NCBI GenBank assembly: GCA_002189035.1
Contig: NEEC01000018.1
Span: 2,418,001-2,482,000, forward strand
Origin: Utricularia gibba
Lineage: Eukaryota > Streptophyta > Magnoliopsida > Lamiales > Lentibulariaceae
DNA length: 64,000 bases
Reading direction: 5' to 3'
Part shown: positions 3,108-53,958 of the stretch, in pieces
Layout: the number at the start of each line of letters is the position of its first letter
Position numbering within the stretch: position 1 is the stretch's first letter
Notes under the pieces: model-generated
What the model was told of the DNA's origin: nothing
Database searches by the model: none
Seen by the model: the letters and a program-made list of their open reading frames with translations, nothing else
Made by a program: the position numbers and the translations under genes

Positions 3108-4633
3108 ATGGCTGGGATGGGGATGCAGAATCTCCATGCTCTGGTGTTCCCTCTCCCACATCAAGGTCATATCAATCCTGCCATAAGCCTGGTTTTCAAG
3201 CTTGCTACCAAGGGCCTTTCAGTCACCTATGTTAACTTCGAGCATGTACACAAAATGCTGGCGAAAGTGCATAACAAGACAACTACAGAGTTCAATATGT
3301 TTTCTGAAGCCAGGGAATCAGGACTCGACATACGATACACAACCATTAGTGATGGTTTACCGGATGAGTTTGATAGAGTTGCTGGATTTGAGGAGTTCTA
3401 TGAACACATGATGAGCGGGTTTCAGCCTCTTCTGGATGATTTTGTTGCGGGGGTCCTCAGGTCAGATCCTAGGTCGATATATTTCTTGGTAGCAGATACT
3501 TTTTTCACATGGCAAGCAGCAGTTGTGGAGAAGTACAACATTGTGCATGTATCCTTATGGACGCAGCCTGCCGTAGTCTTTTCTTTGGCATTCCACAAAG
3601 AGCTCTTGAGAGAAAAGGGCCACTACCCACTAAAAGGTAATATCCAAAGACAGAGCAACCTAGGCCTGTAAAGCTGTTATTTTTCAGCACATCACTAACA
3701 AATTCGTGCTTTCGAACCAGATAATGTTGAAGAGCTTGCTGATTACATACCTGGAATCCCATCAGTTAATACAAAGGACTTCATGCCATATCTAAAGGAA
3801 TCCAATATCCATACAATCTCCTTCAAGCTTACTTCCGCAGCATTTGATCAGGTGCACAAGGCTGATTTTGTTCTACACAACATCGTCCAAGAACTAGAGT
3901 CTGGCGTCCTATCAGCCCTCAATCTACACCAGCCACATTATGCAATTGGTCCCATTAACTTTTACAAGGAGCTCACAGAAAATCCCATACAAAAGAGTTT
4001 GTGGGCAGAATCAAGTTGCACCAGCTGGCTTCAATCCAAGGCTGCTGGATCAGTTTTGTACATATCTTTTGGAAGCATAGTTCCAGCCAGCAAGCAAATG
4101 GTCGAAGAAGTAGCTCATGGGCTGATCCTCAGCCATGTGGACTTCATCTGGGTCACTAGAGATGCAGTAGAGAGAGGCAATGGCATGTTCCCTGCTGGAT
4201 TGGAAGAAGAGGTAAGAGATAGAGGATTGATTATTCCTTGGTGTAACCAGGCAATGGTTCTTTCAGACCCTGCAGTTAGAGCATTTCTCACACACTGCGG
4301 CTGGAATTCTGTGATAGAGAGCATCTGGAATGGGGCTCCGATGCTGTGCTACCCTGTAGATTTTGATCAGCCTATCAACAGGAAACTCGTGGTGGATGAC
4401 TGGGGATAGGGCTTAATCTTTGTGATGGAAAAGCAGTTAACAGGACTGATGTTGCTGCAAAGATTAGTTCCCTGATGACCGGATGTATACCAAAGGGTAG
4501 ACTTACAAATCTTAAGGATATCCTGAGGAATGCAACAGAACCCAGAGGATCATCTGAGAGAAACTTCAATGAATTCATCATCAACCTGAAGGAAAAGGTT
4601 CGCTTGAAATGTGCAGATGAGCAAAAGGCATGA
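3108..4633 (+). pseudogene. UDP-glycosyltransferase, UGT86A-like (copy 2), frame broken near the C-terminus
   Basis: Exons 3108-3636 and 3721-4633 use the same phase-1 intron position as the sister genes. The reading frame is intact through the catalytic His region (PLPHQGHINPA) and the PSPG box (WCNQAMVLSDP, HCGWNS, ending DFDQ). It meets a TAG at 4407, just after the residues VVDDWG. Adding one base to the G run 4402-4405 restores a frame that runs to the TGA at 4631-4633 and matches the last 75 residues of copy 3. Without that base the protein lacks its C-terminal helices. Because the only defect is one base in a homopolymer, a sequencing error is at least as likely as a true pseudogene. 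The PSPG box also reads AVRAFLTHCG where the family has AVGGFLTHCG. Confidence 0.85.
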
Positions 4634-5114
4634 AACATGAATCGAGTGGGAGTTTGGCCTACGCCTCTATTGAGTGGTTTTTTTTTTTTCGACACAATGC
4701 CGCCGGTTAGTAAAAGAGAGCCAGGAGAGATCGAAGAACATTTGATTCAACTGAGATGCATAGATCACAGTGAATGTTTTACAGTAAAACGAACCTTTGT
4801 TTCCCTACAACTCACACACGTGAGACTGGTCCGCATTGTCCCCGATAGAAAGTTCTTTATCTGCAAAATTCAACGCCCTTAAAAAAAAAATGAACTGGAT
4901 TTCAACGATGAATTAACCTGTTCATACTAATTACCAGAACGGTCCAAATAGGCGTCTTATTCAGGTTTATTCAAAGAAACAATAATCTGACCTGCAACAT
5001 TGGAGCTCCGTTTACGGCAATTGCTTCCGTCCAAGACAAATGAATCGCCCTCACCCATTCCAATTTGATCAGATAGGAAAAGTCCACTGCGGACCACTCA
5101 ATCAAAACTTGTAC

Positions 5115-5123
5115 TTATAAATG
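5115..5123 (+). promoter_or_regulatory. TATA box of UGT copy 3
   Basis: The box ttataaatg lies 47-55 bases before the ATG at 5170. It is too close to the upstream in-frame ATG at 5131 for that one to be the usual start, so it decides the start codon. Confidence 0.6.
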
Positions 5124-5169
5124 AATCTCTGTGTACCTCCGAAAAAAATCAGAACAGCTATCACGAAAG

Positions 5170-6701
5170 ATGGCTGAGAAGCAGAAGCTCCGTGCTCTGG
5201 TGTTCCCCTTCCCACTCCAAGGTCATGTCACCCCCGCCATAAATCTAGTCCTTAAGCTCGCTTCGAAGGGTCTTGCAGTCACCTTTGTTAACTTCGAATA
5301 TGTTCATAAAATGCTGGCCAAAGTGCATAGCAAGACAGATGCAGAGTTCGATTTGTTTTCTGAAGCACGGGAGTTTGGACTCGACATACGATACACAACC
5401 ATTGGTGATGGTTTACCCGATGAGTTCAATAGAGTTGTTCGACATCTGGAGTTCATGGAGTACATGCTGAGGGAGTTTCAGCCTCTTATGGAGGAGTTTG
5501 TGGGAAAGATCATAAGGTCAGATTCTGAATCCATGTATTTCTTAGTAGCTGACACTTTCTTTTGTTGGCAAGCAGCCGCTGCGGACAAGTTCAACCTTGT
5601 ACATGTATCGTTATGGACTGAGCCAGCCTTCGTCTTATCCCTGGTATGCCATCGAGGGCTCCTGAGACAAAGAGGCCATTACCCACTAAAAGGTATGCAC
5701 TACAGAGAGCACAACCTAGACCTGCGAAGCTGTTCATTTTCAAACATTTAGCAAATCACCGAAACAATTGTGCTTTTGAACCAGATAATGTTGAAGAGGT
5801 TATTGATTACATACCTGGCATCCCATCAGTGAATACGAAGGACTTCATGCCATATCTAAGGGAATCCGATATGGACACGATCTCCTTCAGATTTGGTACC
5901 AAAACATTTGATCTGGTACCCAAGGCTGATTTTGTTCTGCACAACACAGTCCAAGAGTTTGAATCCAGTACCCTATCCGCTCTCAGTAAATACCAGCCAC
6001 ATTATGCAATTGGCCCAATTAATTTCTACAAAGAGCTGACCAAAAGTTCCATAGACAAGAGTTTATGGGTGGAATCAAACTGCGCCAGCTGGCTTCAATC
6101 CAAGGCCCCTGGATCAGTTTTGTACATCTCATTTGGGAGCCTAGTTCCCGCCAGCGAACAAGTGGTTGAAGAAATAGCTCACGGGCTTATTCTTAGCCAC
6201 GTGAGCTTCATATGGGTGACTAGAGATGGAGTAGAGGGAAGTCATTTACACGTACTCCCAGTTGGATTGGAGGAAGAGCTCAAAGATAGAGGATTGATAA
6301 TTCCTTGGTGTAACCAGACCATGGTTCTTTCAGATCCCGCAATTGGTGGATTTCTCACACACTGCGGCTGGAATTCTGTGATAGAGAGCATTTGGTATGG
6401 AATTCCAATGTTGTGTTATCCATTAGATTATGATCAACCTATCAACAGGAAACTAGTAGTGGATGACTGGAACATAGGGCTGAATATCCAGAATGGGTAT
6501 ACAGTTGACAGGCATGATGTTGCCCAGAAGATTAAATCCCTGATGGCTGGAAATATATTAAAGGATGGTCATAAGATGAGAAATCTGAGTAACATGTTGA
6601 GGAATGCAATAGAGCCCGGTGGATCATCTGAGAGAAATTTTGATCAATTCATTACTGATCTCAAGGGAAAGCTTCACATCAAAGTTGCAGCAGAAGCATG
6701 A
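5170..6701 (+). CDS. UDP-glycosyltransferase, UGT86A-like (cluster copy 3)
   Basis: Exons 5170-5692 and 5785-6701 join in phase 1 to give 479 residues with no break. The N-terminal acceptor domain has the catalytic His in PFPLQGHVTPA. The PSPG donor-binding box runs from WCNQTMVLSDPAIGG through HCGWNS to LDYDQ, with canonical residues throughout. The protein is very similar to copy 2 and more distant from copy 1, so copies 2 and 3 are the younger duplicates. I chose the ATG at 5170 because it gives an N-terminus (MAEKQK) matching copy 2 (MAGMGMQ) and is well spaced from the TATA box; an in-frame ATG at 5131 would add 13 residues. Role inferred from family: cytosolic glucosylation of a small acceptor, identity unknown. 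Confidence 0.92.
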
Positions 6702-7258
6702 AATGTTTCAGACAGGTTCACATCAGTAGAATGTGCAATGTACTATTCAGTCAATATATTTGGTTAAAATTGTTATTCCCAGACACGTCATTTGATAATG
6801 ATTACCTTTCGAAAATGGTTTTTTCCAAGTGTGAGACTGTAGGCTGGTTTCAAGGAATAAAGTAGTATCAGAACGGGCAGGAGCTAGCATCATCCCAGAG
6901 AAACCAGAAGAACAGCTGACTGAATTTGAATACGAGATAAATAAATCATCCAATAGAGACAAAAAGAAACAAAACAAAAAAAAACAGTTGTTTGGAAAAC
7001 ATACCCCACCGTATCAAAAATACATTTCATATAGATAAGTCCTGAAAACATGGACCATAGATTGATTGGCAAAGCTTCATGGCAATTTGTAAATCAGGAA
7101 TCGTATAAAAAGAAACACAAAGAACGTTACCAAGAATTTGTTAAACGCACGAATCTATTCAGTATTTGTACAGGGAGACTTTTACCTTTTTACTAAACTT
7201 AATAGCCCTTGGCATGAAATTCATTGAGGTCATCCATAAGGATTGAATTTTCTTTAGT
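6702..7258. other. Convergent intergenic region between UGT copy 3 and the PGK-TrmB gene
   Basis: This holds the 3' flanks of two genes that point at each other. No coding similarity was seen. Confidence 0.5.
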
Positions 7259-10200
7259 TCACTGTTCAACTTTTGTGAGTAAAAGTCTATACATGGGATC
7301 TCCACGAAATAGAACATGCCTCTCCCAATCTGAGGGCACTCCAAATGGATTTTCATTCAGCCAAACCTGTTCATCATTTTCCATAGCCCCTTGAAGTTGG
7401 GAAATAATGATGTATCCTTTACCATGTTTTATGAATTCCCTTTTCATTCTAATGGCTACACCTTCGATGTCAGACTGGAGAAAAACCTGTTGATCAAGAG
7501 TGGAAAAGTCAGGAGAACAATGAGCGTCAACTGGCATCCTAAAGACTAAAATCTCGATTATTTAAGTTGATATTATGTGATGAACCTAAAAGGACCCCAC
7601 CCGAAATTAAAGGAAATGTAAACATTGAGTACCTTTCCACCAGGCATAAGCATATCAATAATTGCTTTGACTAATGACCTTCGCAACATTCGTTGACAGT
7701 ATTCTGATTTTTTGAAATCAGGGTTTGGACACTGAAAAATGCGTACCAAAAACATCAGCTAGGGACATTACTGTACAAACATGAGAAACTTCCACAAAAG
7801 GAAATTCAAAGCATGAGACAAAAACCCATTATTGGCATAGCTTCTGAAAGGCAACTTTCCTGAATGGAGACAAGAGCCAGCTTCCCAGGATAATTGGAGA
7901 CTATAGATCTAAAGGTTGAAGTTACATCTGTTGCAATGAAATGCCTGAAAATAAATAAACAACTTGGTTTTTATGGGCTTAGGCAACTCCTTGACTGCTA
8001 CAAATCACAGAAAAAAGTTATATAAATATACAGATATGTGCATTTTCGATCTCTAAAGGTCAAAATCGAGGCTATTTCAAGAAACGAAAAAGCATACATA
8101 TTGTGAATTTCAAGCTGATGCACATCATCCAGGCAACGATCCACCAGCTGACCAGTAGCGGTGCAAAAAGTATTAAATTTGGAACCTCAAACCATAAAAG
8201 ATACTTTGCTGTAACAGCAATACCTTTGCATTCATTTCAAGCCCAAGGAAGTTCATATCATTTCTCCTTGTTGCCATTCCAAACAAGAACAAACCATTGC
8301 CTATAAGTACACATTATTATGTTAATTTCCTGTCAGCCCATGGACCAGATGAATCACAATTTGAAAATGCAATAATTGTAGAACAAACCAATGCCATGCC
8401 AATAACTAATAGGTGTATGCCAGTCTTATGCATCATGATGTAGAACTGTTTCAATAAAAAACTAAGTACCACTTCCGACATCAATAAATAGAGGCTTCAT
8501 TGGATCATCATAGACAACACTCCAGTCAATTTGGAAGGAATACGCCTGCATGAAAAAAAGTTACATATTTTCGTATATTATCATGAGGTAAAGAGATACT
8601 CATACTTTATCTAATGCCATAAGTCCAGGAAGCTTTCTACCCTTGAGAACCTCCCAAACAACCGTGGCACTGGCAACAAAATCACAGTTTGAAATATTCT
8701 TTGACCTCACCGCGAAATCTTTAAATTCCATTCTCCCAACAAAAGTGATATTGCAACTGGACACCATTACGAGTGCTTGGGCAAGCTCCAACATTCTACC
8801 TTTTCTTGAAGTGTCAAATGTCAATGGACCAATCCATAACACTTTCTGGAGAAAAAAGTAAATACAAAAGGTGAACAGCAGCATTCTGCACATCTTAGTT
8901 TCTCCGCAATCTATGATTCATCCTCATTGATACATTAAGTTTGTGTCTCTTCATGTGCTCAATCAATCCAAGTGTGGTTACTTGCATTTTAGAAGAACAT
9001 AAAAATGAATTCTCAAACGTATGATAGCGTTACCTTTGATTTAGAAAGAGAGTTGAATATTTCGTCCAATGATCTGGGTCCAATGTCAACTGGCTGCCAA
9101 CCTAGAATTACAAGAACACAAAGCCTCAGTGGAAAAAACAACATCGAACCAAAATCAGACACAAATTTAATCCGAGAACGTGAACTGACTTCCAAATTCG
9201 TATTCCACTCTTAATGTATTTCACATATGGTAAAAAGAGCTGCATAAAGCATTTTTGGTAGGCCTTGCTTCACAAAAAACCAAAATTTAATGGAAATACC
9301 TGGAGGAATAGAACAAACGGAAAACAGCTCCATCTCATAAGAACTATGGCCTTTTCTGCACCAAAAGTCTTTCGGAAGAATAAGAGGAATGTTTCTCGAC
9401 TTTACATGCTTCACTATGCTGGAAGCTTCTGCTAGTTCTTTAGTATTAATTAATTCCATGGGAACAGGTATGCCTAGGCCATGCATTATTTGAAATGCCA
9501 AGGTTCCCACAACGACCAAGCCATCGCATAATGAAGCCAAAGTATGCACTGCAGCAGCCTTGGCAGCAAGGTTTCCTCCTGTAAGCTAAATAAATTGCAA
9601 TCGGCAAGTTAATGCAAAAGAGGGCTTATGTATAAGTTTTAGCTAACACAAAATATACAAAGTTATAATCATTACAATAGCATAATAGGGCCTTTCGGCA
9701 GTGCTGATGATTCCCTTCATCTTGCAAAGATTCTCCTCAAAGAAAAATCCAGCAATATAGGCACCAGAGAAGCCAGCAATACCAACCGTCGATGCAAGAA
9801 TTTTATGAGATTCAGAAAAGGCATCATTGATGATCATATCAACCCAAGAGGCAAGTTCTTTGGAAAATTTGGAACAGTTGGCTGTCTCTTCTTTTAAGGG
9901 GTAGAGATTCTCAAGTAAAAGCACAACCTTATTTCCTTCAGTCTCCAAATTTGGAAATGGAGACCTGCTAATATATTTTTTTGGAACAACTTCAATTCCA
10001 AGCACCTCTGATAGAAAATCTGTACACAGAAAACTATTAAAAACAGGCTCGACATTAAAAAAGGATTACAAGTTTCGATATAATAATTGACCCACTTGCA
10101 ACAGTTTCAGATGGACAAGGTTCTGAAAGAGTGTCTGACCCAATGTTCTCATCCCATCTGCCAACGAGGACCACTTCAGCACCTGCTTTGTGTAAGTATG

Positions 10201-16934: not shown

Positions 16935-18352
16935 ATGGAATCAGAAGCGGCGATTGCACTCGCAATGGCTGCTACTACCGATATGTATCCGCGACCTCCT
17001 CCCGATCTTCAGCCCGGTGCTAACAGCGTCTTAGCCCTCGAAATGTCCCTCAACCGGAATCCTAACCAGCTTGATTTCCACCACAGTCACCAGCAGCAAC
17101 AGCTCCTCCCCCAGCCCAAGATCCAGCAAGCTTTCACATCCCACAGCGACGACGATGATCCGGCCACTCAAACCTCAATGGGAGGCCCCGAAAATGATGC
17201 TGCCAAGAGAAAGGTCTCGCCTTGGCATCGGATGAAGTGGACGGATAATATGGTCAGATTGCTGATCACGGTCGTTTACTACGTCGGCGACGAGGCTCCC
17301 GTCTCCGACCATGGACCCACCAACGACGATAGCACCAAGAAGAAGGGCGGTTCCGGCTCTGGCTCTGGCTCCGGCTCCGCCGCGTTGCAGAAGAAGGGGA
17401 AGGGGAAATGGAAGTCTGTCTCCAAGGCGATGATGGAGAAAGGGTTCTTTGTTTCTCCGCAGCAGTGTGAAGATAAGTTCAACGATTTGAACAAGAGGTA
17501 CAAGAGGGTGAACGATATTCTCGGCAAGGGTACTTCATGCAGAGTTGTGGAGAATCCGGCTTTGCTGGATAAGCTCGATCATTTGTCGCCCAAGATGAAG
17601 GATGAAGTCAAGAAGTTGCTCAGTTCCAAGCACTTGTTCTTCAGAGAGATGTGTGCTTATCATAATACCTGCGGCCATGCTGCTGTTAATGGAGTTGCAT
17701 CTCAACAAGAGCTCGACCACCATCTCCACCAAACGCAGAAACCATGTTTGCATTCAGATGAGGTAATAGTAGTCCCCAATCTGAACAAATCTGAGAATGA
17801 AGGATCCAAACTGGCAGCCGCAGCAATAGAAACAGTGTTGCTCCCTGAAAACAATGTTGAAGTTGCGGCCGCAGAAGAAGATGAAAATGAGCATGAAGCA
17901 GATAACGAGGAGGAAGATGATGATATTGATGTTGATGAGGATGATGAGGATAGGAGATCCAGGAAGAGATACAGAAAGGGGGGCGTTCTTCTTCGGGCGT
18001 GGTGCAACAATTAGAAGCTGATATAATAAACATTTTGCAAGATGCATCCAAGAGTCACACGGAGAAGAGGGAGTGGGTGAAGGGGAGGTTGGCGGGATTG
18101 GAAGAACAACGTGTAAACATCGCCGCCCAGTCGTTCGAGCTTGAGAAACAGAGATTCAAGTGGCTCAAGTTCAGCAGCAAGAAGGAGAGGGAAATGGAGA
18201 GGGAAAAAGTGATGAACGAGAGGTTGAATCTGGAAAATGAGAGAATGATGCTGATTCTGAGGCACAAGGAATTGGATTTGATTCATCATCAGCTTCAACT
18301 TCAACAACAGACGCATCATCATCATCACCACAACAGTCACGCCCCCAAGTAG
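16935..18352 (+). CDS. Trihelix transcription factor, HRA1/At1g21200-like, with a 1-base frame break
   Basis: The first frame (16935 to TAG at 18012) encodes a His/Gln-rich N-terminus, then the trihelix DNA-binding domain (WTDNMVRLLITVVYYVGDE, KGKWKSVSKAMMEKGF, SPQQCEDKFNDLNKRYKRVNDIL), the conserved block NPALLDKLDHLSPKMKDEV, and a long acidic tract. The rest of the family protein, starting VVQQLEADI and continuing through the coiled coil EKQRFKWLKFSSKKEREMERE, lies in the next frame and ends at 18352. One more G in the run 17978-17983 joins the two into a 472-residue protein with the usual architecture. Family role: nuclear DNA-binding regulator; HRA1 (At3g10040) dampens hypoxia responses, but orthology is inferred. 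The start could instead be the in-frame ATG at 16965. Confidence 0.85.
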
Positions 18353-18982: not shown

Positions 18983-20270
18983 CTCCAATGCTCCACTGAA
19001 GCTCCGTCTCAGCTGATTTGTCTTGAGGCGAGGAGTCACTACGGATAAAACCTGCATTATGTTGAAAGCAACATTGATTTATACCACAATAAAAACCGTT
19101 GAGGGCATTTGGCCACATCCAACTTGACTAACCTGGCAGCCAGACCGGATGAGGTAAAACATATTACAACAGAAGCTTTTACTTTGATGGTAGCTCGGAC
19201 ATGGATGACATATAAATGATCAAACAGATTGTTCGGAAAGCAAGTCATATTTTGTCCCAAGAGGGTGGTGATCTTGAAAAATGCAATGGCCTCCATATGG
19301 GTAATGGTACAGTCACCTTGTATAATGATCTTGATTGAAAACCTTTTCGGACTAAACGAAATGGTACAAAAATGGAGGTTAATAAACACCAGCAGCTAAG
19401 GGAAATTACTATGTGCGCAAGCTCATTATAAACAGCATGATCCAAAATCAAAGCCAAGGGGAATTTAAACGTATCGACTGAATTACTTGCAACCTTGAAC
19501 CTTGATAACCTCTTTTTATACCTCAACGTATATTTTCCTCACAGCAGAAATAGTTTAGACAGGGTACTGTGCCAGTAATATTTCAACACCTAGACGTATA
19601 GCATCACATCCTGAAACATAAAGTTTCAGTAAAATAAACCTGGATAGAGTTTATAGGGAAGTCTAATAAATTAAAGCTCATGTGAGGAAGTTCCGGAAAC
19701 CCAACTCCTTCCCTAAGAATATAGGATACCAACTGACCATCCAATACAGCATTGGCATCATCAGTTTCTTCTGCTCTTGTGGGCCTTCGATTGTCAGTAA
19801 TGGCCTCAACAACAGAAGTTATCACAGCTGGCTCCTCCACCGTATTACATTTGTATATAGCAGACTTCTGTAACGAAAACACCTACTAAGAAATAAGAGT
19901 GATTTTCAATCACAACTATCAGCATGAAGTTATGGATCACAAACAACTAAAGCTGGCATCAGTTACAACAGCATCACTGGAGATGGAATGGCTGCACCTA
20001 CCTTCTCAGGTGGGAGATCTATACCAAGGTTTCCAATAGAAAGTTGAGCTCTCTAAGGATCTCATCCAAACGAGTCAAACCCTATCGGTATGAGAAAATT
20101 GATCAAACGAAAAACTTGATGCAAGCCACCCGAACACAGATCATTTTACATCTGCAGTGATCAGAAAACACACAAAAAAAAGAACATTTCGAGCTCACCT
20201 CTGCAGTTTCAATTTTAGCAAAGATTTGGGTTTGCCATAGATCACGAAGCTTGGACAACAGCTCCCTGGC
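18983..20270 (-). pseudogene. Cytosolic pyruvate kinase pseudogene (partial, decayed)
   Basis: Exon-like blocks in order on the minus strand match plant cytosolic pyruvate kinase. 20270-20199 encodes ARELLSKLRDLWQTQIFAKI; 20081-20002 ends GNLGIDLPPEK; 19867-19738 encodes [17 protein letters not shown] and [16 protein letters not shown]; 19610 onward encodes [18 protein letters not shown]; about 19200-19137 encodes IKVKASVVICFTSSG; 19051-18983 encodes VVTPRLKTNQLRRSFSGAL. The copy is dead. In block 2 the catalytic loop segment (normally DGIxLSRGNLGID) is shortened and out of frame, and its Arg is lost. A TAA at 19555-19557 replaces the Glu after YPV, and the N-terminal half of the barrel and the C-terminal tail are absent. 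The functional gene must lie elsewhere. Confidence 0.82.
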
Positions 20271-24648: not shown

Positions 24649-27289
24649 ATGGAGTATCTCCCCTCGACGACCATTTTCTCCGGATCATATTCCAGCGATG
24701 TTAGACAGCAAATGGAGATGTTTTGGGAGCAGATCAGGGTGCCTTTGATTGTCCCCGTACTCAAACTGGCGGTTTTCTTGTGCTTGTCGATGTCAGTCAT
24801 GCTATTCATTGAGCGGGTGTATATGGCGGTTGTGATAACTCTGGTGAAGGTGTTCGGCAGAAAGCCTGAGAGAAGATATAAATGGGAGCCATTGAAAGAC
24901 GACGTGGAGCTTGGGAACTCTTCTCATCCAATGGTCCTTGTTCAAATTCCAATGTACAATGAGAAAGAGGTGAGAGTCAGATATCCAATTCCCCGATGCC
25001 TGCTTGTGTATATTCCCAAGACCAAGCTCTTTGGTTCCTCTTTTCCAGGTTTATCAGCTGTCGATTGGAGCTGCATGCGGACTCTCATGGCCGTCCGATA
25101 GGATTATAGTCCAAGTTCTTGATGACTCAACGGATCCCATCATCAAGGTAACAGCAAACAAAGTTGCGCTTGCAGTGAAATCGGGAGATAATAAACTGAA
25201 ACAAGTATTGTGTATGTGGGTGGGCGGCGGCAGAGCATGGTGGAGATGGAGTGCCAGAGATGGGCGAACAAAGGGATAAACATAAAATATGAGATCAGAG
25301 GCAATCGAAGTGGATACAAAGCTGGAGCTCTGAAAGAAGGACTGAAACACCCTTACGTCAAACAATGCGATTTCGTGGCCATCTTCGACGCTGATTTTCA
25401 ACCAGAACCTGATTTCCTCTGCCGCACCATTCCCTTTCTGGTTCACAACCCGCAGCTGGCCCTCGTCCAATCCCGCTGGAAATTCGGTACTTAACCATCA
25501 TTATCTTCAATAGAATCATACCCCATGTACGTAAGTGAGTGTTTTCAGAATGATGCATATCCAAGCAAGTGTCTGTCGGTGAGCCTAGAGCCATGGGGAA
25601 AAGCCAATGGGTAGGTGGTAGGCATAAATACCCAACCACCCATTCTTCTCCCACTAGTCAGTCACATGAGGAGGCTTTTTTTTGTGGGCTGGGCATATGT
25701 TTTTTATGCTAAAAATCTAACCCGTGGTCGGAGATTGTGGTGTGGTTCCTCATCGGTCCTGGGCCATGTGAAGCGATAAAGTGCTTCATCAGGGAAGGAC
25801 TTAAAGTGAAAGGAAACAAGGGATGATGGGACCGGGGCCGGGGCCGGGCCGGGATCGGGACCAGCAATCTTTGATTCCCAACCTACCAACTGATTGTGTT
25901 CCATCTTATCATTTTTCAGCAGCCCATGTCTTGTTGTGTAGTCATATAACATGTGTTGAATAATTTTTGGTTAAAGTGAATGCGGACGAATGCCTGATGA
26001 CCAGAATGCAAGAGATGTCGCTGGACTACCATTTCACCGTCGAGCAAGAAGTCGGCTCTTCCACATACGCCTTCTTTGGCTTCAACGGTGCACATCATGC
26101 AATAGTCATAATGTCCTTCTGGGTCAAGGCATGTAACAGTATTTTCTTAAACTAGGGACCGCGGGGTGTGGCGATTGTCGGCCATTGGTGAAGCCGGAGG
26201 GTGGAAGGATCGTACCACGGTGGAGGACATGGACTTGGCGGTCCGTGCCAGCCTCAAGGGATGGAAGTTCTTGTATCTTGGCTCCTTGAAGGTACGCATG
26301 GGTAGGTGCTTCAATAATTGATAGGAGGAGGAGGTGGTGCGTGCGTGAGAGTAGAGGGCCTGGGTAGATAACCGGGCAGGGTGCTGTGGTGTGTAGGTGA
26401 AGAACGAGCTGCCGAGCACATTTAAAGCGTACAGGTATCAGCAGCACCGTTGGTCGTGTGGTCCAGCAAACCTTTTCAGGAAAATGGTGATGGAGATTAT
26501 AAAGAATAAGGTTAGGTGAAGCAGTCATAATTAAGGCATCGCACTTCATTGATGATGTCTAATGATGATTGACTCGGCAGAAAGTGTCGGCGTGGAAGAA
26601 GGTCCATGTGATCTACAGCTTCTTCTTCGTCAGGAAGATTGTCGCCCACATCGTCACGTTCGTCTTCTACTGTGTTGTGCTCCCTGCCTCTGTGTTGGTA
26701 CCCGAAGTCGAGATTCCTAAATGGGGCGCGGTCTACGTACCCTGCGTCATCACCCTCCTCAACGCCGTCGGAACTCCAAGGTAAACAACGGTGGGGATTT
26801 TCGAATTGCTTTAGAAAGAAGATGAATGGGACAGGGGTGATCCGTGGATCAGGTCTCTGCATCTGCTGGTGTTCTGGATTCTTTTCGAGAACGTGATGTC
26901 GCTTCACCGGACGAAAGCCACCTTCATCGGACTGCTGGAGGCTGGGAGAGTTAACGAGTGGATCGTCACGGAGAAACTCGGTGACGCACGCAAGTTCAAA
27001 AGCGCCGTTAAGAAGCCCAGGTTTAGGATCGGAGAGAGGTAACCGGCACCGACCATCTTTCTCAAAGAAAAAAAGAAACATATCTTTTTACTGTTATTAT
27101 ATCTGCTGCCGGCGATGGGAATAGGTTTCATTTACTGGAGATGGCGACGGGGGGTACCTGTTGCTGTGTGGCTGCTACGACGTCTTTTATGGGAGAAGCC
27201 ATTACTTCCTATACCTGTTCGTACAGGCGGCGGCATTCTTCGTCGCGGGATTTGGGTATATCGGCACCTTCATCCCATCTTCGACTTAG
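24649..27289 (+). CDS. Glucomannan 4-beta-mannosyltransferase, cellulose synthase-like A (CslA), with two 1-base frame breaks
   Basis: Nine exons: 24649-24969, 25049-25147, 25234-25486, 25977-26087, 26156-26291, 26397-26510, 26581-26780, 26853-27038 and 27125-27289. They encode a Golgi GT2 enzyme of 528 residues once two single Gs are supplied, in the runs 26163-26166 and 27149-27154. GT2 motifs are all present: [28 protein letters not shown] and the QQHRW signature. An N-terminal membrane helix (about 40-60) and C-terminal helices frame the cytosolic catalytic domain. Family role: backbone synthesis of (gluco)mannan for the cell wall from GDP-mannose and GDP-glucose. Without the missing bases, exon 5 would lose the reading frame right after the FGFNG segment and exon 9 the last 50 residues. 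Sequence similarity to CslA9 is strong. Confidence 0.9.
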
Positions 27290-30223: not shown

Positions 30224-31119
30224 TTACTTCTCCTTTGTTTCTAAGTTCAGGTTCAATTCTTCCAGTTTCTTCAGCCTCATCTGCTCGCTCTCGCTCAGCA
30301 GCTGCGTGCAAATAACAAGGTTTGTATTTCTCGCTCAAAGAAAAGACAAGTTATGCTTGGCATCACCTCCATCAGCCTCGCGATGAGTAGCGATTTTTCC
30401 TTGGTCCTCTCGTTGAGTACTTCAAGGGCTTCCTTGTGTTCTTTCTCCTGTTATCGATCACAAACAGCGGAGAGTATCAGGAACCAAAAACGGAGTAGAG
30501 CAGAAATAACTACTTCCCGTCTGTACCTTCTTCCGGCAGGTGACTCCAAGTGTTTTCAAGTCCTTGTCTGCAGCTTCAATTTTCTTTCGAACGAGAGACA
30601 CCTCTTTCTTCAGGGGTCCCCAGAGTTTCCAATTCCTGGTAATTAAGAGACGAAGAAGATAATAGCTACGGAAATGCAGGATTTTTTCAGCTGGATGAGA
30701 ATCTAGTGAATCTGATTCACATAAGATGATTAGGACAAGAAATGATTTTTTTCCAGCCTGGGTAAGAAAGAGAAGCTGTACCATACCAAGGAAAACATCT
30801 ACCGGCGGTTTAACTACAGGCAAGACCTAAAAAAGAGCTAGATACCGGGGGTTGAAATATTGAGGCTAATCGAAGGCAAGACCTCAAGAATCGTGGAGAG
30901 GCGCTTGGTTTCTTCTTCAATACGGCCGAGCTGCGCCTGGACTTTTTCTTTGACTTCCGTCTTCCTCTTCCGGATCTCTTCCTCTTTGGCCCTGTAAGCC
31001 GAAAGAGCAGACTTGGTCATCTCCTCGTCCACCTCCGCCGTGGGCCTGCGGAAGCTGGAATCCCCCAAAACTTGGTCGGAATGATCCGATACAACACCCT
31101 CTGACACTGCATCGGCCAT
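30224..31119 (-). CDS. RAB6-interacting golgin-like protein (DUF662), with a 2-base frame break
   Basis: Exons 31119-30883, 30635-30527, 30447-30367 and 30301-30224 give a 168-residue, almost wholly helical protein. The DUF662 core is clear: YRAKEEEIRKRKTEVKEKV, AQLGRIEEETKRL, VSLVRKKIEAADKDLKTLG, EHKEALEVLNERTKEKSLL and MRLKKLEEL. In exon 2 the frame changes between ELETLG and PLKKEV. Adding one G and one C (coding strand) in the adjacent G4 and C4 runs at 30613-30621 gives LGDPLKKEV, as in the family, and restores one frame to the TAA at 30224-30226. Function in plants is not established; the animal relative GORAB acts at the Golgi. A coiled-coil Golgi or cytosolic role is inferred. Confidence 0.85.
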
Positions 31120-32733: not shown

Positions 32734-35700
32734 ATGGCTGAGGCAGAAGACAACAGTGTGCTGTTTACCATTTTCGTCTTGACTATAATCTTGCTTCCTC
32801 TTGTGCCGTATACTGTTGTCAACATTTACCAGAATTTCAAAAAGAAGAAGTCCAGCATAAATTGCCGTTGCTCAGCCTGCTTTCGATCGGGAAAGTACTG
32901 GAAATCCATACTCAAGCAGGCAAATTGTTCATTCTTGACTTCTCATTATGTCTTATATGGCTGCTGGACTTCTCCTCATTCGTCTTTGTTTTCATGATAT
33001 GCCAGATTTCAAACTTTTCAACTTACAGTAACTTGACAGTAGTATTGCTTTGGGTTGTTGTGGTGCTACTGGTGTGCTACATCAGGCATACAAACACCGA
33101 GGTACAACCTTTTTTTATTTGAACTGTTATCAAGCATGGGCATTGATCTCCTCCGAGAATCTGTTGTACGTTTTCACGTGTTTTTGTCATCCTCGCCTCT
33201 GAAATATGAGTTTGAATGATTTTGTTGCCAGGTCAATATTTTTGATCCGTTTAGCATACTTGGATTAGAGTCGGGAGCTTCAGAATCAGAAATAAAAAAG
33301 GCGTACAGGAAACTTTCCGTATTGTACCATCCTGATAAAAACCCTGACCCAGGTTTATGTTATCAAGTATATTTTGTTGTTTTCTCTAACCACGCAAAGG
33401 TACTAGTTCTCAATTCTTCAGATGATTAACTATTTCCTAACCTTTCTTTTCAGATGCGCATAAATATTTTGTAAATTCTATCTCAAAGGCTTATCAGGCA
33501 TTAACTGATCCTGTCTCACGGGAAAACTATGAAAAATATGGCCATCCTGATGGTAGACAGGTATTTGATTTTTGTAACAAAATTAATAATACAGAAATTA
33601 CTACCGTTTCTTTTGAGTTCTCTTAGTTGGGGATGAAATTAATGTGCTTGCTACTGTCCAGTTGTTGATACAGAAAAAAATTGGTTCAAATGCTTTTTTT
33701 TAACATCCAGGGCCTGCAAATGGGAATCGCCCTGCCCCAGTTTCTTCTTGATATTGATGGTACTTCTGGTGGAATTTTGATACTTGGAATTGTAGGGGTT
33801 TGCATTATCCTACCCCTGACGATAGCAGTGATATATTTGTCAAGGTCTTCCAAATATACTGGAAACTATGTTATGCACCACACCATGTATGCTTATTACC
33901 ATTTTATGAAGCCATCATTAGCTCCAAGGTACCCATCTGAAAACATATTGCCTGTTGGGTCATATTTTATTATCAGGACGTTGGTTGAATAGAATTTGAT
34001 AGTATTGTGCCTTTTTCACCTACAAATGGTTCATTTAGAGTTTTGCCTTCACTTTCTGGTCCTAAATGATTTCACGGCATGGCTAGCTGTTTTATCCCTT
34101 AGGCATATGATCCTCTGCACTAGTTTTTTTTTTATTATTGAAATTCCTCATTTCTTGTCTCTTATTCCTATTTTGTCCACATGTTACAGCAAGGTTATGG
34201 AAGTTTTCACCCGGGCTGCTGAATACATGGAAATTCCAGTACGCAGAACAGATGAAGAGACACTTCAGAAACTGTTTCTGTTAGTCCGAAGTGAGTTAAA
34301 TCTTGATCTCAGAAATATTCGACAGGAACAAGCCAAGTTTTGGAAGCAGCATCCTGCTTTGGTGAAGGTAAAATCATAGTCTCTTAACCTTTTCCAGTAT
34401 TTTGATAGGCTTCTCTTTCAATTATTTCTGATTTTTCTGGCAGTCAGAATTGCTGTTGCAAGCGCATTTGACTCGTGAAACTGCAACCTTATCACCACAT
34501 CTGCAAGGTGATTTAAGGAAAATGCTTTCACTGGCTCCTCGTCTTCTTGAAGAACTAATGAAGGTAATTCATCTTACTGCGGATGAGTTTCACATTAGGG
34601 TTCAGGTGCTAGTCTCTCGTTCAGTGGTTGTTTCAAATAGTTACTGTTTAGTTGGTTGAAATGTTCACTCCTAAATTTGTCTTATTTTAGGAGCTATTCT
34701 CACATAGATGACCATGTAATGTCTGTTTGTCACAGATGGCTATTATTCCGCGCACACAAAAGGGTTATGGATGGTTAAGACCTGCAATTGGAGTGGTGGA
34801 GCTATCCCAAAGTATCATTCAGGTAGATTTTCTTGAGAGTTGTCTGTAGTCAGTGGTCACGGTCCTTTTTATTCAATTGTGAGCTTGTTGAAACTACTTG
34901 GGAAGTAAGGCCGTTTCAAATGCAGGCTGTGCCTCTCAGTACAAGGAAGGCTACTGGAGGATCAAGTGAAGGTTATGGCCCATTCCTCCAGCTGCCGCAC
35001 TTCAGTGAATCTGTGGTCAAAAAGATTGCTAGAAAGGTGGCTTTTTGTTTTTGTTGAAAACTGCGTGGATGTATTCGCTTGTGCCCCGCACTGTATTTTT
35101 AAGGCCCATTTTACTTTGTGCAGAAAGTTCGTTCTTTCCATGACTTACGTCAAATGAAACCAGAAGAGCGTTCAGAGCTTTTGACTCAAGTGGCAGGTTT
35201 CTCTGCTGAAGAATCTCAAGATGTGGAGTTGGCACTTGAGATGATGCCTTCCATTGTGGTTGACATTACCTGCGAGACAGAAGGAGAAGAAGGGATTCAA
35301 GAGGGTGATATTGTCACTATGCAAACCTGGATTACTCTCAGTCGTCCAAATGGCTTGATCCGTGCCTTGCCTCATTCTCCGTTCTTCCCCTTTGACAAGG
35401 AGGAAAATTTCTGGTTATTGCTGGCTGACTCTGCCTCAAACGATGTATGGATGTCACAAAAGATCAATTTCATGGACGAGATGACGGCCATAACTGCAGT
35501 GTCAAAAGCAATTCAGGAGCTCAAGGAGGGATCTGGTGCCAGTGCTAGGGAAATGAAAGCAGCCGTAAAAGAAGCTATTGATAAGGTGAAGGCCGGTTCA
35601 CGGCTGGTTATGGCCAAGTTCCAGGCCCCTTCAGAGGGAAACTATAATTTAACCTCTTTCTGCCTGTGCGACTCATGGATTGGTTGTGATGCGAAGACGA

Positions 35701-41246: not shown

Positions 41247-43632
41247 ATGGCGCAGTTGATACTCCGTTGCTTTACGCATCTGGATGCTCGTCCGCCTGTA
41301 GGATTACCGGCAGTCCGGGCCAGACTGGAAGAGCGAAATGGTCTCTCTAGTTTGGGCCAAAAATGCTCTTCCAACCACAATGTCAGATGTTCATCAAGCC
41401 TACATACCTTCCATCATTTTCAGGATGACGATGAGCCTTTTTTGAACATGCACCCCGACGTATATAGGCTCAGAGGTGAGACAAACTCCGCAGTGGCCAA
41501 CCTTAAGCAGGCCACTTCAATTGGGAATGTGACTGAAATGTTGAGAGACTCTTCAATTTCGCGGAAGTCTAATGACGCCAAAATCAAGGTTGTTGGCGTT
41601 GGAGGTGGTGGCTCTAATGCTGTCAATCGCATGATTGAAAGCTCAATGAACGGAGTCGAATTTTGGATTGTTAACACCGATGTCCAAGCAATAAGAATGT
41701 CACCCGTTTTCCCTGAGAATCGGCTACAGATCGGTCAGAAGCTGACTAGAGGGCTTGGTGCAGGGGGAACCCGGATATTGGAAAGAATGCTGCTAATGAG
41801 AGCAGAGAGTCGATAGAGGAAGCTGTCCATGGAGCAGATATGGTGTTTGTAACTGTGAGGACTTTCTTGCATTAACCAAGTGATAGAAATGCCAATAAGT
41901 CGAATGGAAATTGTCACTTTTATCTTCAACTGGGGTTCTTTTGCATGGGCTATTGTTGTTCGTTATGATGTGCTATGCTTTCGTTCCCATGACTTTGATT
42001 TGCGGTGGTTTAGAATCATCTTTCTGCTGAGAACAAACTATTAGAAGATGTCCTACCATGCATCTGCTATTTCATGTTTGTATTATCATGCACAATGTGT
42101 AAATCATGTTATTCGCAGGCTGGCATGGGTGGAGGAACAGGGACAGGTGGAGCTCCAATAGTTGCAGGAGTTGCAAAGGCAATGGGTATTTTAACTGTTG
42201 GTGTGGTCACAACTCCATTTTCTTTTGAGGGGCGAAGACGAGCTGTTCAAGCCCAAGAAGGGATTGCTGCATTAAGGGAGAACGTTGACACTCTAATTAT
42301 TATTCCAAATGATAAACTGTTGACAGCAGTTTCCCCATCTACACCAGTCAGTGAAGCATTCAATCTTGCTGATGATATTCTTCGGCAAGGAATTCGTGGT
42401 ATATCTGATATAATTATGGTATAGTTCCTGACACAATGTAGGCTCTTCAGAGAGTGAGAGTGTCTGCCTATTCCATTGACTTTTTCGATGATTTTCTCTA
42501 TGGCACATAATTCTCGATAATATCCTTTGATTTGAAAAAATCATATTCTTCATGTGCATCTGAACTCTCGCTTGTTACCATGTTGAGTACTTCTTTGATT
42601 TGCTCGGAGTTATTGTTTTCAGAGCCTTATGGATCCTCTTATTGTGCATTGAGGCATGTGTGAGAACATTGTTTCGGTCATCTACAGATTCCAGGGCTAG
42701 TAAATGTGGATTTTGCTGATGTCCGGGCCATCATGGAAAATGCTGGTTCATCGTTGATGGGAATTGGCACAGCAACAGGTACTCTGAAATGGTCACCTTA
42801 CTTCACAGTGTTTTCCAATTGTTGGATATCTACCTTCATGGCTAGTTATCATCAAGTGTAGGAAGGGTCAATTCTGCAGCACTCATTTCCTAGTTTATTT
42901 TTGATCCCTTGATCACCACTCATTTCCTAGTTTATTTTTGTACTATAAAAAATATTACTTGGGTAAAATTCAGGAAAGAGCAGAGCCAGAGATGCAGCAC
43001 TTAATGCTATTCAATCTCCTTTACTGGATATTGGTATAGAGAGAGCCACTGGGATCGTGTGGAATATAACTGGTGGCCCTGATTTGACGTTGTTCGAGGT
43101 CATACATTCTGATCATGGAAGTTGCTATATTTTCACATATGCTGATGATTCATGCTGTTGTAATGAATGAATGAAAGTGGTAGCTTGCTTTTGGTCTTCT
43201 ACTACAGGTGAATGCCGCTGCGGAAGTCATATACGATCTTGTGGATCCAAATGCCAACTTGATATTTGGAGCTGTGATCGATCCGTCCTTGATTGGCCAA
43301 GTAAAAACTCCCAGCTTTCATATCCATATCTTAGTGTCGATCACCTTTCGTTAGTCTGTCTTTCCGTACTGATGCAGGTGAGTATAACACTAATTGCTAC
43401 TGGTTTTAAACGTCAAGAGGATGGTGAAGGACGTGCAACCCAGCAGGTACGGCTCCTCAATTTTTTTTTTTTTCTTTGTATGAATCCAAAGAACGAATAT
43501 ATGGGTACTCAGGGAGATGGAACACGAGGCGTGAACCAGCAGCCTTCCTCCCCGCAAGAAGGTGGTGGCGGTTCGATGGAGATACCCGAATTCCTGAGGA
43601 GAAAGGGACGCTCTCGCTATCCAAGAGCTTAA
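41247..43632 (+). CDS. FTSZ2: Plastid division GTPase FtsZ2, with a 1-base frame break in exon 1
   Basis: Seven exons: 41247-41854, 42119-42418, 42688-42778, 42974-43098, 43208-43300, 43378-43446 and 43513-43632. They encode 468 residues after one G is supplied in the run 41763-41767. A plastid transit peptide of about 90 residues precedes the GTPase core. That core has [23 protein letters not shown], the tubulin signature [13 protein letters not shown] (GTP binding), and the T7 synergy region [10 protein letters not shown]. The C-terminal peptide [18 protein letters not shown] is the FtsZ2-specific motif that binds ARC6; FtsZ1 lacks it. The protein forms the stromal ring that divides chloroplasts. 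As read, exon 1 runs out of frame after RGLGAGG and stops at 41814; the corrected frame reads [20 protein letters not shown]. Confidence 0.93.
42880..42940 (+). repeat. 24-base direct repeat within FtsZ2 intron 3
   Basis: cactcatttcctagtttatt plus ttg occurs at 42880-42903 and again at 42917-42940, a small local duplication. Confidence 0.7.
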
Positions 43633-48125: not shown

Positions 48126-48789
48126 AGCGCCGTTGGTGGAGCATGTAACAGAATAAATGTATCTATCTGTTGGTGCATTCTATGGAAACACACACTACAC
48201 CGTCGCAAATCTCGATACCTGGGCTGCCACTAGTACTACTGCTACGACTACTACTTGCTACCAGGAAAGGAAAATAATGGGCCGTGGGGCATGGTGGTGG
48301 ATGACAATGTATTTATGGCGAGAACGATCTGTCGCCAGCCTTGTTTCAGCCCGCCCAAAACAAGCTTCTGTTTAGCCTGCACTGGCCATAAAAGGTAAAC
48401 CTGGATTACTATTACCTGGGCTGGCTTGGATGCGGTGGCGACTGCGCTCCTGCACCAGAATTTCATTCTCGTAAAACCTGGGCTGCCCAAAGCCACCCAA
48501 AACGTAATAAATTGACACAAGGAAGGGATTCAGATTCAGTTACGACGTGGCGGGCAATGAGTGGGGCATGACATTGAATAATTTAAAATACGGAGGACAC
48601 ACGTGGTTTGTAAATTGGAAGTAGCAAAACAGGAAAAAATTCATCCACCCCCAGCGCAGCGCAGCGCACCCCAGCCCCAGCCCCAATCAATGCTTCTTCC
48701 CTTTCCTTCGTAGCCTATCCATCAATCTGATCCCATCCCTTTTTCCGCCGAGAAGAGAAACTGCGTTGATTTTGGCGGTTCCCTCAATT
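48126..48789. other. Intergenic region and F-box leader
   Basis: No gene was recognised. Short gcgca and cccag tandem motifs occur near 48652-48684 in the F-box gene leader. Confidence 0.45.
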
Positions 48790-50468
48790 ATGGTTGGCAG
48801 GAGGAGGAAGAAGTTGAAATCGTGAGTCTTTTTTTTTTTTTTTTTTTTTTTCTCAAATCCCCATCTTCAATTTCTTATCTTTTCCTTTAGTCCGAATGTT
48901 TTTTCTTCCGCTGCCCAACTCCCTTTTCGTCTAGGCGGTGTTCCTCTTTGTATTTTTCATCTTTGATTCTGAAGAGCTGTTATACTATATTCCGATGTCG
49001 TTACATTAGAGAATCTGGTAAGAATGAGGCTAGCAGTCTCTTTCGTACTTAGGCTAGCCTTGGGATTCAGCTTGTTTAGCTACATCTTTTAGTATAAAAA
49101 TTGGTTTTTTTTTTTTTTTTGGGTATCATAGTGGTTTTCTGTCTTACAATCAAGTTTCAGGAAGGTTTCTTTACTAAGTTGAAACTTGCACGCACGTTAT
49201 TTTGCTCTTTTATTATGTTTCACGGAACGGTAGTTTAGGATCATAACCGCTTCCTAGCGAACATGTTATACAGTCTTCGTGGTTGGATACTGTATTTCCG
49301 AGTTTGGCAACGCGATCACTTTGATAGCCTTTTACGGCATTGAAAAAATTTTGACCTTTTGCAATTTTTGGACTGTAGTTTGGCTGAAACTATCACCGAT
49401 GACAGAACCCTTTCAAGAGCTGCACCACATGGAACACAAACACAGTTTGAACTACCAACTGAGCTTTTAGAGTTGATAATTTCTCGGTTGACCTTGAGAG
49501 ACAATATCCGTGCTTCTGTCGTGTGCAAAAGATGGCTGGATGTTGCATCCTCTGTCCGAGTAGCAAATAAGCCTCCATGGCTGATGTTTTTCCCAAAATT
49601 TGGAAACTTATACGAACTCTATGATCCTTCTCAGCGGAAAACATACTGGCTTGAGTTGCCTGAGCTACAAGGTTGCAGGATTTGTTATGCCAGGGATGGT
49701 TGGTTGCTATTGTACAGGCCCAGAACTCTCAGTGTATTCTTCTTTTGCCCCTACACTCGGGAGCTACTTGATTTACCTAGCCTGGAACTAACATATCAAA
49801 TAGTTGCTTTCTCTGCTGCTCCAACATCTGATAGCTGCATCATTTTCACGGTGAAGCATGTAAGCCCTACTGTGGTTGCAGTTAGCACTTGTCATCCTGG
49901 GGCAAATGCATGGAATACCAACAATTACCAAAGTCGTCTCCCGTTTGTCAGTAGCATTTGGAACAAACTTGTTTTCTGTAATGGTCTCTTCTATTGTTTG
50001 AGTTTGACTGGTTGGCTGGGAGTTTATGATCAGGACAAGAGTTCGTGGACTGTACAATCCGTGCCTCCTCCGAAGTGTCCGGAGAATTTCTTTGTCAAGA
50101 ATTGGTGGAAAGGAAAATTCATGGCAGAGTACAATGGTGAAATTTTTGTCGTGTACACATGCTCTGCTGTAAACCCTGTCATATATAAGCTGGACCAGAA
50201 AAACAAACTCTGGGTGGAGTTGGAGACGTTGGATGGTATGACTCTTTTTGCAAATTTTTTGACTTCCCATGCCAGGACAGATCTTCTTGGATCCATGAGA
50301 AACAATGTGTTCTTCTCTAAGGTCCGTTTCTATGGAAAACGTTGTGTTTCATACTCCGTAGACAATGGGAGATATTATCCAAGAAAGCAGTGCTACGACT
50401 GGGGAGACCAAGATCCTTTTGGAAGCGTCTGGGTTGAACCACCGGATGACTTGTCCATTTTTCTTTAA
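48790..50468 (+). CDS. F-box protein with DUF295/kelch-like C-terminal domain (At1g57790-like)
   Basis: Two exons, 48790-48821 (encoding MVGRRRKKLK plus two bases) and 49379-50468, give 373 residues. The small basic first exon and the phase fit the start of At1g57790 (MAGRGRKK...). The F-box lies at about residues 33-72 (ELPTELLELIISRLTLRDNI, then VVCKRWLDVA). The C-terminal beta-propeller-like DUF295 region follows, with RKTYWLELPEL, DGWLLLYRPRTLSVFFFCPY, VSPTVVAVSTCHPGA, FCNGLFYCLSLTGWLGVYD and QDPFGSVWVEPP. In SCF E3 complexes the F-box binds SKP1 and the C-terminal domain a target, unknown here. A shorter start within exon 2 is possible but would lose the conserved N-terminus. Confidence 0.88.
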
Positions 50469-50735
50469 GGAATTTGTTGTGATGATGGTGATGGAAGTTG
50501 ATTTCTTAGCATCGATCAGACCTATGTAATGCTCGGCCAACATGTATGCTGCAGAGGACAGGATGACCTTTCTTGATAGACTGTTTGCTCTTGCTTATCC
50601 AGGTTTACTTTCTTCAAAAGCAGCTTATCTTAGTAGTATTACGGTCTCAATTTGTTCATTTCTCATCGTGTAACATTCTAGTTAGTATTATAATTACAAT
50701 CATCTGAGAAAAACCTGGAATTTGTCCAGGCAATA

Positions 50736-50881
50736 TCAAGGAAGCGTTAGCCTCATTACTTGATTTGGCAGTGGCACTGACAACTGTGCTGCTCATTGTT
50801 GTGAGGGATCTTTGAAAACCTCAAGCTAAATAACAATTTTGATGTCAAGGAAGCGTTAGCCTCCTTACTTCATTTGGCAGT
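50736..50881 (+). repeat. Spaced direct repeat (37 bases, 2 mismatches)
   Basis: tcaaggaagcgttagcctc and the following ttactt(g/c)atttggcagt occur at 50736-50772 and 50845-50881, 109 bases apart. Both copies can be read as KEALASLL(D/H)LAV in the same frame sense. Confidence 0.75.
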
Positions 50882-51053
50882 AAGTAACAAGAATAGCTGG
50901 ATGCTAAATGTGTGTGAAACTGTAGATAGGAATCGTTTGCGGACTAAGCGAATAAGGACGTCTGTTTCTTCTAATCTTGATGCTCCTCCAACCGAGCTAC
51001 GTGGGTCACCTGATGCAGCTATCTATCGTAATGATGTCTCAAATTGCGGTTGA
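50805..51053 (+). other. Unidentified open frame, possible exon or gene fragment
   Basis: An 82-codon frame open from 50805 to a TGA at 51051, with no early ATG. It reads KEALASLLHLAVSNKNSWML, then a basic stretch (RNRLRTKRIRTSV) and SPDAAIYRNDVSNCG. Its composition looks protein-like, but I recognise no family and no flanking splice partner. It starts with the second copy of the 37-base repeat. It may be the tail of a transposed gene or an unannotated exon. Confidence 0.3.
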
Positions 51054-51059
51054 TTATTC

Positions 51060-51764
51060 TCTGCAGGTACAGAGTTGTTCGCTCTTAGTCGCATGTATGT
51101 GATGGTTGGTTTTTAAATGCATGCGCAGTAATCCACTTGTATTCTTTGATACAAAAACATTATTGTATTCAAACCGAGGACACGTTCACTGAAAATTATT
51201 GGACATTTGTTGAAAATGGACTCTCGACTTGGAGGAAGGGTAGGGCAGGGCAGGATGTGTAGGAGAGTCAAACAGAGTAAATTTATTATTGTGAAAACCA
51301 ACCCTTCGATTTTAAATACTAGAAAACATGTTCATTTGAATGAATCAATCAAATTCGTATAAAATAGAATTATAATTTACAAATAGATTCAAAAATTCAC
51401 ATTTCTTCCCCATGATTGGGTAGGATTGTTTAGAATTTCTTTTTTGATTTAATGAGATGTTGTATTGTAAAACAATATTCTTGAAGGGGTGTTTTCCCAA
51501 CCTAAGCCCTTAAGGAAAAAAAAAATGACTTGAAAATTCAATTTTAACGTCTTCTCTTCCACGGTGCGAGGGAACCGGCCTCAAAATACACCAACTAAAA
51601 ACGGCAAGTTATCGACAATTGAACGCCAACGGCTCTATCTCCGACTCAGATTCCCATCCAGGAAAACAAAGGGAATTCCAGCCTCAAATTGATCCTGATG
51701 TCCTTTCTCAAGGTTGTTTATATAGTCTTCATGCCGCATCATTCACCATCAACCTTGTTTGTCA
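51060..51764. other. AT-rich intergenic region and invertase leader
   Basis: 51300-51540 is strongly AT-rich, with no recognised gene. The invertase leader follows from about 51560. Confidence 0.45.
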
Positions 51765-53958
51765 ATGGAGCATTCAAAGGGAATTCTTGTCTGGGATTTG
51801 CAGATACTTTTCTTGTTTTCTTGTGTAGTTCTGGTCATCATCAATGGAGCCGAAGCGTCACATAAGGTTTATCCCCATTTACAGTCAGTCCTGACGGTAA
51901 ATGTCTTGGAAGATCACCGAACTGGCTTCCATTTTCAACCCCAAAAGCACTGGATCAACGGTAAATATAATCCAAACTATGCTACTTTTTTAGTGTTTCA
52001 TTATTTGCGGGCGATGACATATGTTTCATCCGTTTCATGTGCTGGATGCATGAACCAATCTGTTCCCTGACAGATCCAAATGGTAAGAAAAAAAAAAAAA
52101 ACTGCATCTTTATCTTAATCTTCATGTTCTCGGGAGAAACTGTATCATCAAATTTTTGTATTCAGGACCGATGTATTTCAATGGATTCTATCATATTTTC
52201 TACCAGTACAATCCCAAGGGAGCAGTGTGGGGCAACATAGTCTGGGCGCACTCTGTTTCCAAGGATTTGATTAACTGGAAAAAATTGGAACCTGCAATTT
52301 ATCCATCCGAGCCCTACGACAAATATGGTTGCTGGTCGGGTTCTGCCACCGTACTCCCGGGAAACAAGCCGGTTATCCTTTACACAGGAGTGGTGGATGA
52401 GAATAATACCCAGGTCCAAGACTACGCTGTTCCAGCCAACATTTCAGACCCATATCTCCGAGAATGGGTGAAGCCAGATGACAACCCTTTGATTGTAGCG
52501 GATGTATCCGTCAACAAGACTTCATTTCGTGATCCGACCACCGGTTGGAAGGGAGCCGATGGCCAGTGGCGGATTCTCGTGGGAGGCCTAAACGAGGATA
52601 CCGGTGTTGCGTTGTTGTTCAAGAGTAAGGATTTTTTCAAGTGGGAAAAGGTGGATCATCCGCTTCATTCCGTAGCTGGGACAGGAAATTGGGAATGCCC
52701 TGATTTTTTTCCTCTGAGAATCGGTGCAAGTACAGCGCCGGACACTGACTCGACTTACGGCCCGGATGTGAAATATGTTTTCAAGGTGAGTTTGGACGCT
52801 ACGAGGTACGAGTACTACACCTTAGGGCATTATGATGCCGAGAAAGACCTGTTTGTTCCCGACAAGGATATGGTTGAAGGGTGGAAAGGATTGAGATTAG
52901 ACTATGGAAACTTCTACGCTTCAAAATCTTTCTTTGATCCCATAAAAAAGAGAAGGATTTTCTGGGATGGGCCAATGAATCCGATACAACAGAGGATGAT
53001 GTCAAGAAGGGCTGGGCAGGCATTCAGGTAGTTATCTATTTATTTGTTATTTAACAATAACCAAAATGTCCAACTCTTTCTTGCTTCCTTTTCAGGTCAT
53101 CCCACGGACAGCGCTGCTGGATTCCAGTGGCAGGCATCTTGTGCAGTGGCCAGTGGAAGAAGTGGAGAGCTTAAGAGGGCATAGAGTGGATTTGAACGGG
53201 AACAAGCTTCTAAAGGGAGAAATGGTAGAAATCACAGGAATAACCGCAGTGCAGGCAGATATTGATGTCACATTCTCTTTTGATAACTTGGACAAAGCTG
53301 AGCCCTTTAATCGTAGTTGGGATAGACAGGACGCAGAACACATTTGCAGCCAACGACGCTCTAATGTTTCTGGTGGTCTAGGACCATTCGGAATTGCTAC
53401 ACTGGCCACAGAGAAGCTTGAAGAATTCACCCCCGTGTTTTTCCGTGTTTTCAAGGATGAGAACAAGCACCTGGTTCTCCTTTGTTCGGATGCGTCAAGG
53501 TTGTGTTATTTACTTTTCCTTTCCCACTCCACTCCCTCTCATCATGAAACACTCGAATGCTCATAATTTTTTCCTTCGCCACCAGGTCTAGTTTGAAGGA
53601 TGGGAAATCGCGCATGAAGGATGGTAAGGATGCGTACAGGCCTTCATTTGGAGGATTCATAGACACCGATTTGAAGGACATGACTCTTTCCCTTCGGAGC
53701 TTGGTAAGGGACGTTGCCGTTTATGTCTGTTGAGATCACAATTTCACCTTACGCATGCGCCCATGTATCCAGATTGACACTTCCGTGGTGGAGAGTTTTG
53801 GAGAAGGAGGGAAAACGGTCATCACATCGCGTGTTTATCCCACTCTAGCCATTTTTGATAAAGCCCGCCTGTATGCCTTCAACAATGGAACTGAGCCCGT
53901 GACTATCAAGCGGCTTAGCGCATGGAGCATGAACAAGCCTCAGAACATGAACCATTGA
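51765..53958 (+). CDS. Cell-wall (acid) invertase, beta-fructofuranosidase, GH32; 1-base frame break in exon 3
   Basis: Six exons: 51765-51960, 52074-52082, 52166-53027, 53096-53499, 53586-53703 and 53773-53958. They give 591 residues after one G is supplied at 52964-52966. A signal peptide (about 1-32) targets the apoplast. Catalytic motifs: WINDPNG (Asp nucleophile), WSGSAT, FRDPTT (transition-state Asp) and WECPDF (acid/base Glu). The Pro in WECPD marks the cell-wall class; vacuolar enzymes have Val. Exon 2 is the 9-base mini-exon (gat-cca-aat core) typical of plant invertases. The enzyme splits sucrose in the wall and drives phloem unloading. As read, the frame fails after KKRRIFW; the corrected frame continues [20 protein letters not shown] into exon 4. 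Confidence 0.93.

Follow-up and report, generated by a model that had tools for sequence, protein, structure and literature searches.

The window analysed here is a 64-kb stretch of the Utricularia gibba genome (G000:C409:2418001-2482000, from an assembly of 100.09 Mb in 516 contigs). It carries a tandem group of UGT genes and genes for a trihelix protein, CslA, a DUF662 protein, FtsZ2 and a cell-wall invertase, together with SPY, SEC63, mTERF, F-box and RING-H2 genes (Table 1). A sequence-only reading had listed G or C runs at which six otherwise intact genes lose their frame, and each of these runs is indeed present in the sequence at its coordinates. Translation shows that the reading frame switches at every one, and frame-aware alignment to paralogues or solved homologues shows that one added G or C per run accounts for each break (for DUF662, two bases). 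The count of seven sites in six genes stands for the genes but is refined to eight missing bases, with DUF662 counted as two. As had also been claimed, these genes show no other indel type: we found neither extra bases nor in-frame stops. The broader statement that all frame breaks lie at G/C runs holds for the genes tested and is not proven window-wide, with the phosphoglycerate kinase- and pyruvate kinase-like exons, a KDO-transferase-like gene, a 2OG-oxygenase and a few small genes lying outside the frame test. Checked over most of their length, SPY, SEC63, mTERF, F-box, RING-H2 and UGT copies 1 and 3 are without a break.

Table 1. Run sites and other features in the window (window positions), with related loci elsewhere in the assembly (contig positions)
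Feature	Position	Strand	Observation
Three UGT genes in tandem	800-6700		one intron each; intact frames in copies 1 and 3
UGT copy 2 (gene about 3099-4650)	G4 4402..4405	+	one base missing
Phosphoglycerate kinase-like exons	9214-10065	-	diverged (Pfam)
Trihelix gene (about 16942-18349)	G6 17978..17983	+	one base missing
Pyruvate kinase barrel-like exon	19607-19882	-	Pfam
CslA, start of an exon	G4 26163..26166	+	one base missing
CslA, last exon	G6 27149..27154	+	one base missing
DUF662 gene	30613..30616	-	G4 on +, C on coding strand; one base probably missing
DUF662 gene	30618..30621	-	C4 on +, G on coding strand; one base probably missing
SEC63 intron	32918-33022		seemingly a GC donor in place of GT
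FtsZ2	G5 41763..41767	+	one base missing
Cell-wall invertase	G3 52964..52966	+	one base missing
Trihelix paralogue	C142:2099501-2101300		open, 523 aa
Invertase duplicate cluster (L014-L016, L020-L022, L026-L029)	C4:1516539-1586762		recent duplicates
Duplicated locus (L075/L076)	C414:3147601-3150050, C415:6151-8600		C415 duplicates part of C414
Plastid-like contig, part read (L083)	C516:30001-40000		long open frames

The individual sites can be followed at the level of codons and exons. In UGT copy 2 the frame switch falls between LVVDDWG and GIGLNLCDG in translation, and a frameshift- and intron-aware aligner places a single missing base at 4402 relative to copies 1 and 3 and other UGTs; an apparent extra base near 3707 in the same gene was rejected, as it disappears under another intron choice. 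The trihelix paralogue is one base longer at the G6 site, and the ten other coding indels that separate the pair are all multiples of three, so that the G6 run is the single exception. CslA is one base short at 26163 when aligned with three intact CslA paralogues. At 27149 the aligner alone hid the missing base in its choice of intron; we used exon length and splice phase instead, and both the length of the paralogues' exon and its phase-2 junction are matched only if a base is added here. Between ELETL and PLKKE, DUF662 has a net deficit of two bases relative to three paralogues; the simplest fit would be one base lost in each of two adjoining runs, and other placements also fit. A base that seemed to be missing from SEC63 at 32918 was rejected after inspection by eye, which identified the intron listed in Table 1.

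For FtsZ2 and the invertase, solved homologues served as references, with an X set at the break. Against bacterial FtsZ structures, FtsZ2 has one incomplete codon at 41763 and nothing else, and a second, intact FtsZ2 on contig C451 is open at the matching place. Against Arabidopsis CWINV1, the invertase likewise has one incomplete codon at 52964 (RRIFxGWANESD) and nothing else, and its paralogues on C3, C4 and C451 are open at this position. The C4 copies form a cluster of recent duplicates, some nearly identical over 2 kb, which also holds truncated, decayed-looking fragments, one with an in-frame stop and one with an extra-base event. We dropped these duplicates as replicates of the error: the single indel separating the closest copies falls in a long T run and is uninformative.

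To place the window in a wider context, we pooled 55 genes with 81.8 kb of coding sequence, most of it outside the window, and tabulated coding indels by homopolymer context, a check proposed in the sequence-only reading. The outcome was one-base losses in G/C runs only: all 28 single missing bases can be placed in G/C runs of called length 2-6, and the 81.8 kb contain no extra bases, in-frame stops, longer indels or A/T-run changes. Eight of the 28 events, those in the window, came from the sequence-only reading; the remaining 20 did not, and they follow the same pattern. The broken fraction of G/C runs rises steeply with true length, from 2 of about 1,340 at length 3 (0.15%) through 11 of about 326 at length 4 (3.4%) and 9 of about 72 at length 5 (12.5%) to 4 of 10 at length 6 (40%) and 2 of 2 at length 7. 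Breaks thus reach runs called as only two bases (true length 3), shorter than any of the sites first listed. By comparison, 0 of 2,276 A/T runs of at least 3 are broken in the same 55 genes (Fisher p = 3e-10 versus G/C runs of at least 3). Overall, 10 kb of coding sequence contain about 3.4 such losses, or about one in every 3 kb. A sample of 195 kb of nuclear DNA has 30 G/C runs of length 6 and 2 of length 7; the numbers are small, and this drop, sharper than at shorter lengths, is as under-calling would give.

The UGT family allowed the direction and placement of the breaks to be evaluated against simulated controls. The sample comprised the genome's 30 best UGT hits and the three copies in the window, aligned with the same frameshift- and intron-aware aligner under equal penalties for missing and extra bases. 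This yielded 16 events in which a base is missing; real extra bases and in-frame stops were absent. The aligner recovered 59 of 60 simulated insertions and 57 of 60 simulated deletions; the absence of extra bases is therefore real. Scoring all one-base edits against three UGT references did not resolve the breaks to single-base precision, since the optimum shifts with substitutions in the inserted codon, and breaks were instead placed by their fitting interval, with simulated deletions as the control, and then read by eye. A G/C run of at least 3 lies within the fitting interval of 15 of the 16 real breaks, whereas for random deletions made by simulation the figure is 16 of 56 (Fisher p = 3e-6), and chance placement in G/C runs is therefore excluded. 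On inspection by eye, lengthening a run of called length 2 to 5 by a single G or C explains all 16 breaks; at one locus (L036) the run is just two bases long and more than one placement fits.

A second line of evidence comes from a locus assembled twice. Contig C415 (50 kb; 50,036 bp) duplicates part of C414, of which it is probably a haplotig; the two may represent haplotypes. We restricted the comparison to the first 2.9 kb, beyond which substitutions appear. Within this interval there is no substitution, and the only two differences are of one base each, both in C/G runs. Through one of these, a CslA-like gene that is in frame in C414 is broken in C415.

Essential genes are affected as well. 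PRP8 is indispensable, and splicing is impossible without it. Its PROCN domain was matched once in the whole genome, and the protein encoded by the PROCN exon matches solved PRP8 closely over 740 residues. Relative to an approximate plant PRP8 template (about 95% identical overall, which shows it to be adequate), the gene has three missing bases, in C4, G2 and C3 runs; if this is the sole copy, these breaks therefore cannot be true lesions. The same procedure revealed no breaks in about 3.5 kb of coding sequence of RPB2. Missing-base breaks are thus independent of gene function, with essential genes included.

Taken together, the losses are one-directional, confined to G/C, dependent on run length, found genome-wide and in PRP8, and discordant between C414 and C415. 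From this pattern, in agreement with the sequence-only reading, we infer as the final step that G/C runs are called one base short in the long-read consensus, and more often so in longer runs; we hold this to be the correct explanation with high confidence, on the basis of sequence comparison. The consensus would drop one base from a G/C run with a probability that climbs with run length, and in coding sequence such an under-call would mimic a frameshift in an otherwise intact gene. The plant itself almost certainly carries intact versions of the genes that look broken in the window, and reads or cDNA would be expected to show the longer runs. It is improbable, at the level of a small residual doubt, that some of the short runs, a minority, are genuine contractions in some non-essential genes (UGT copy 2 and DUF662, for example) among look-alike errors.

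A true germline or somatic contraction of G/C runs in this clone, by slippage or a mutator bias, would also become more frequent with run length, as the observed rate does. Such a process would have had to leave A/T runs untouched, though they are as common and longer; its three hits in the only PRP8 would be lethal, and it sits poorly with two contigs of one locus that differ at a C/G run in a stretch free of substitutions. We regard it as very improbable.

Real decay, in which the plant lost these genes through frameshift mutations, is suggested by a lineage generally known for gene loss, and truly decayed fragments do occur in this genome, such as those with a stop or extra-base event in the C4 invertase cluster. 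However, stops, insertions, longer indels and A/T-run changes would be expected from decay, and none of these occurs in the 81.8 kb. Mixed indels, premature stops and relaxed coding constraint, the hallmarks of pseudogenes, are not found in these genes; the other indels of the trihelix pair all keep the frame, and PRP8 cannot be lost. The sequence-only reading had judged decay of these genes implausible, and the clean coding sequence and the breaks in PRP8 bear this out, leaving it only the slightest probability. A rescue of the frame in many genes by programmed frameshifting or transcript editing is more improbable still and can practically be set aside: the genes do look conserved on either side of each break, but the runs differ in length, base, strand and codon phase, share no slippery motif or element, and have paralogues whose frame continues past the corresponding place with no shift, so that no shift site is conserved in homologues.

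Under-calling in the consensus is, by comparison, an error type with known precedents, and we take the breaks to be an instance of it rather than biology. The losses have the properties of under-calling in PacBio continuous long reads with Quiver-type consensus: bases are missing and not extra, they fall in G/C homopolymers, and their frequency increases with run length regardless of gene function. Presumably the assembly was made from such reads with an HGAP/Quiver-type consensus; a review lists the Utricularia gibba genome as HGAP, 88x (PMC5793159). In Streptomyces albus SM254, sequenced with P6-C4 chemistry and assembled with HGAP v3 and Quiver, 205 residual indels were found, nearly all in G/C homopolymers (PMC4832174). 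As here, single-base indels in G/C homopolymers remained after polishing and appeared as frameshifts; in contrast to our case, a plant in which the errors are deduced from protein homology, the SM254 errors were rarer (205 in 7.2 Mb) and were confirmed and corrected with Illumina reads. Homopolymer under-calling in the PacBio genome of Clostridium autoethanogenum led to 142 annotation errors (PMC4687164). There too, single bases were lost one-directionally in runs and produced false frameshift annotations, but the runs affected were of T and C, mostly 4-8 long, whereas here they are of G/C only, mostly with a true length of 4-6. Our literature search, with the primary genome paper outside it, found no report of this error for the assembly.

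Two observations weigh against the under-calling explanation. For a polished, high-depth assembly, about one error per 3 kb of coding sequence is a high rate, and a contig of 172,489 bp that looks like the plastid genome (C516) appears to be spared: the 10 kb read contain 12 G/C runs of at least 5, yet rpoC2 (1,373 aa), rpoB (1,085 aa) and long segments of rpoC1 are open. The open plastid frames suggest a higher depth or another data source there, such that depth or data source matters.

With one base missing in about every 3 kb of coding sequence, roughly a third of average-length plant genes would look frameshifted, and without short-read correction this assembly would give inflated counts of lost genes, pseudogenes and contracted families. 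The lineage is studied for gene loss, and apparent losses in the assembly need checking against accurate reads. The tabulation by run length provides a per-run estimate of the error that requires no reads. As a minor observation on the window itself, the pyruvate kinase barrel-like exon lies about 10 kb from the phosphoglycerate kinase-like exons, on the same strand.
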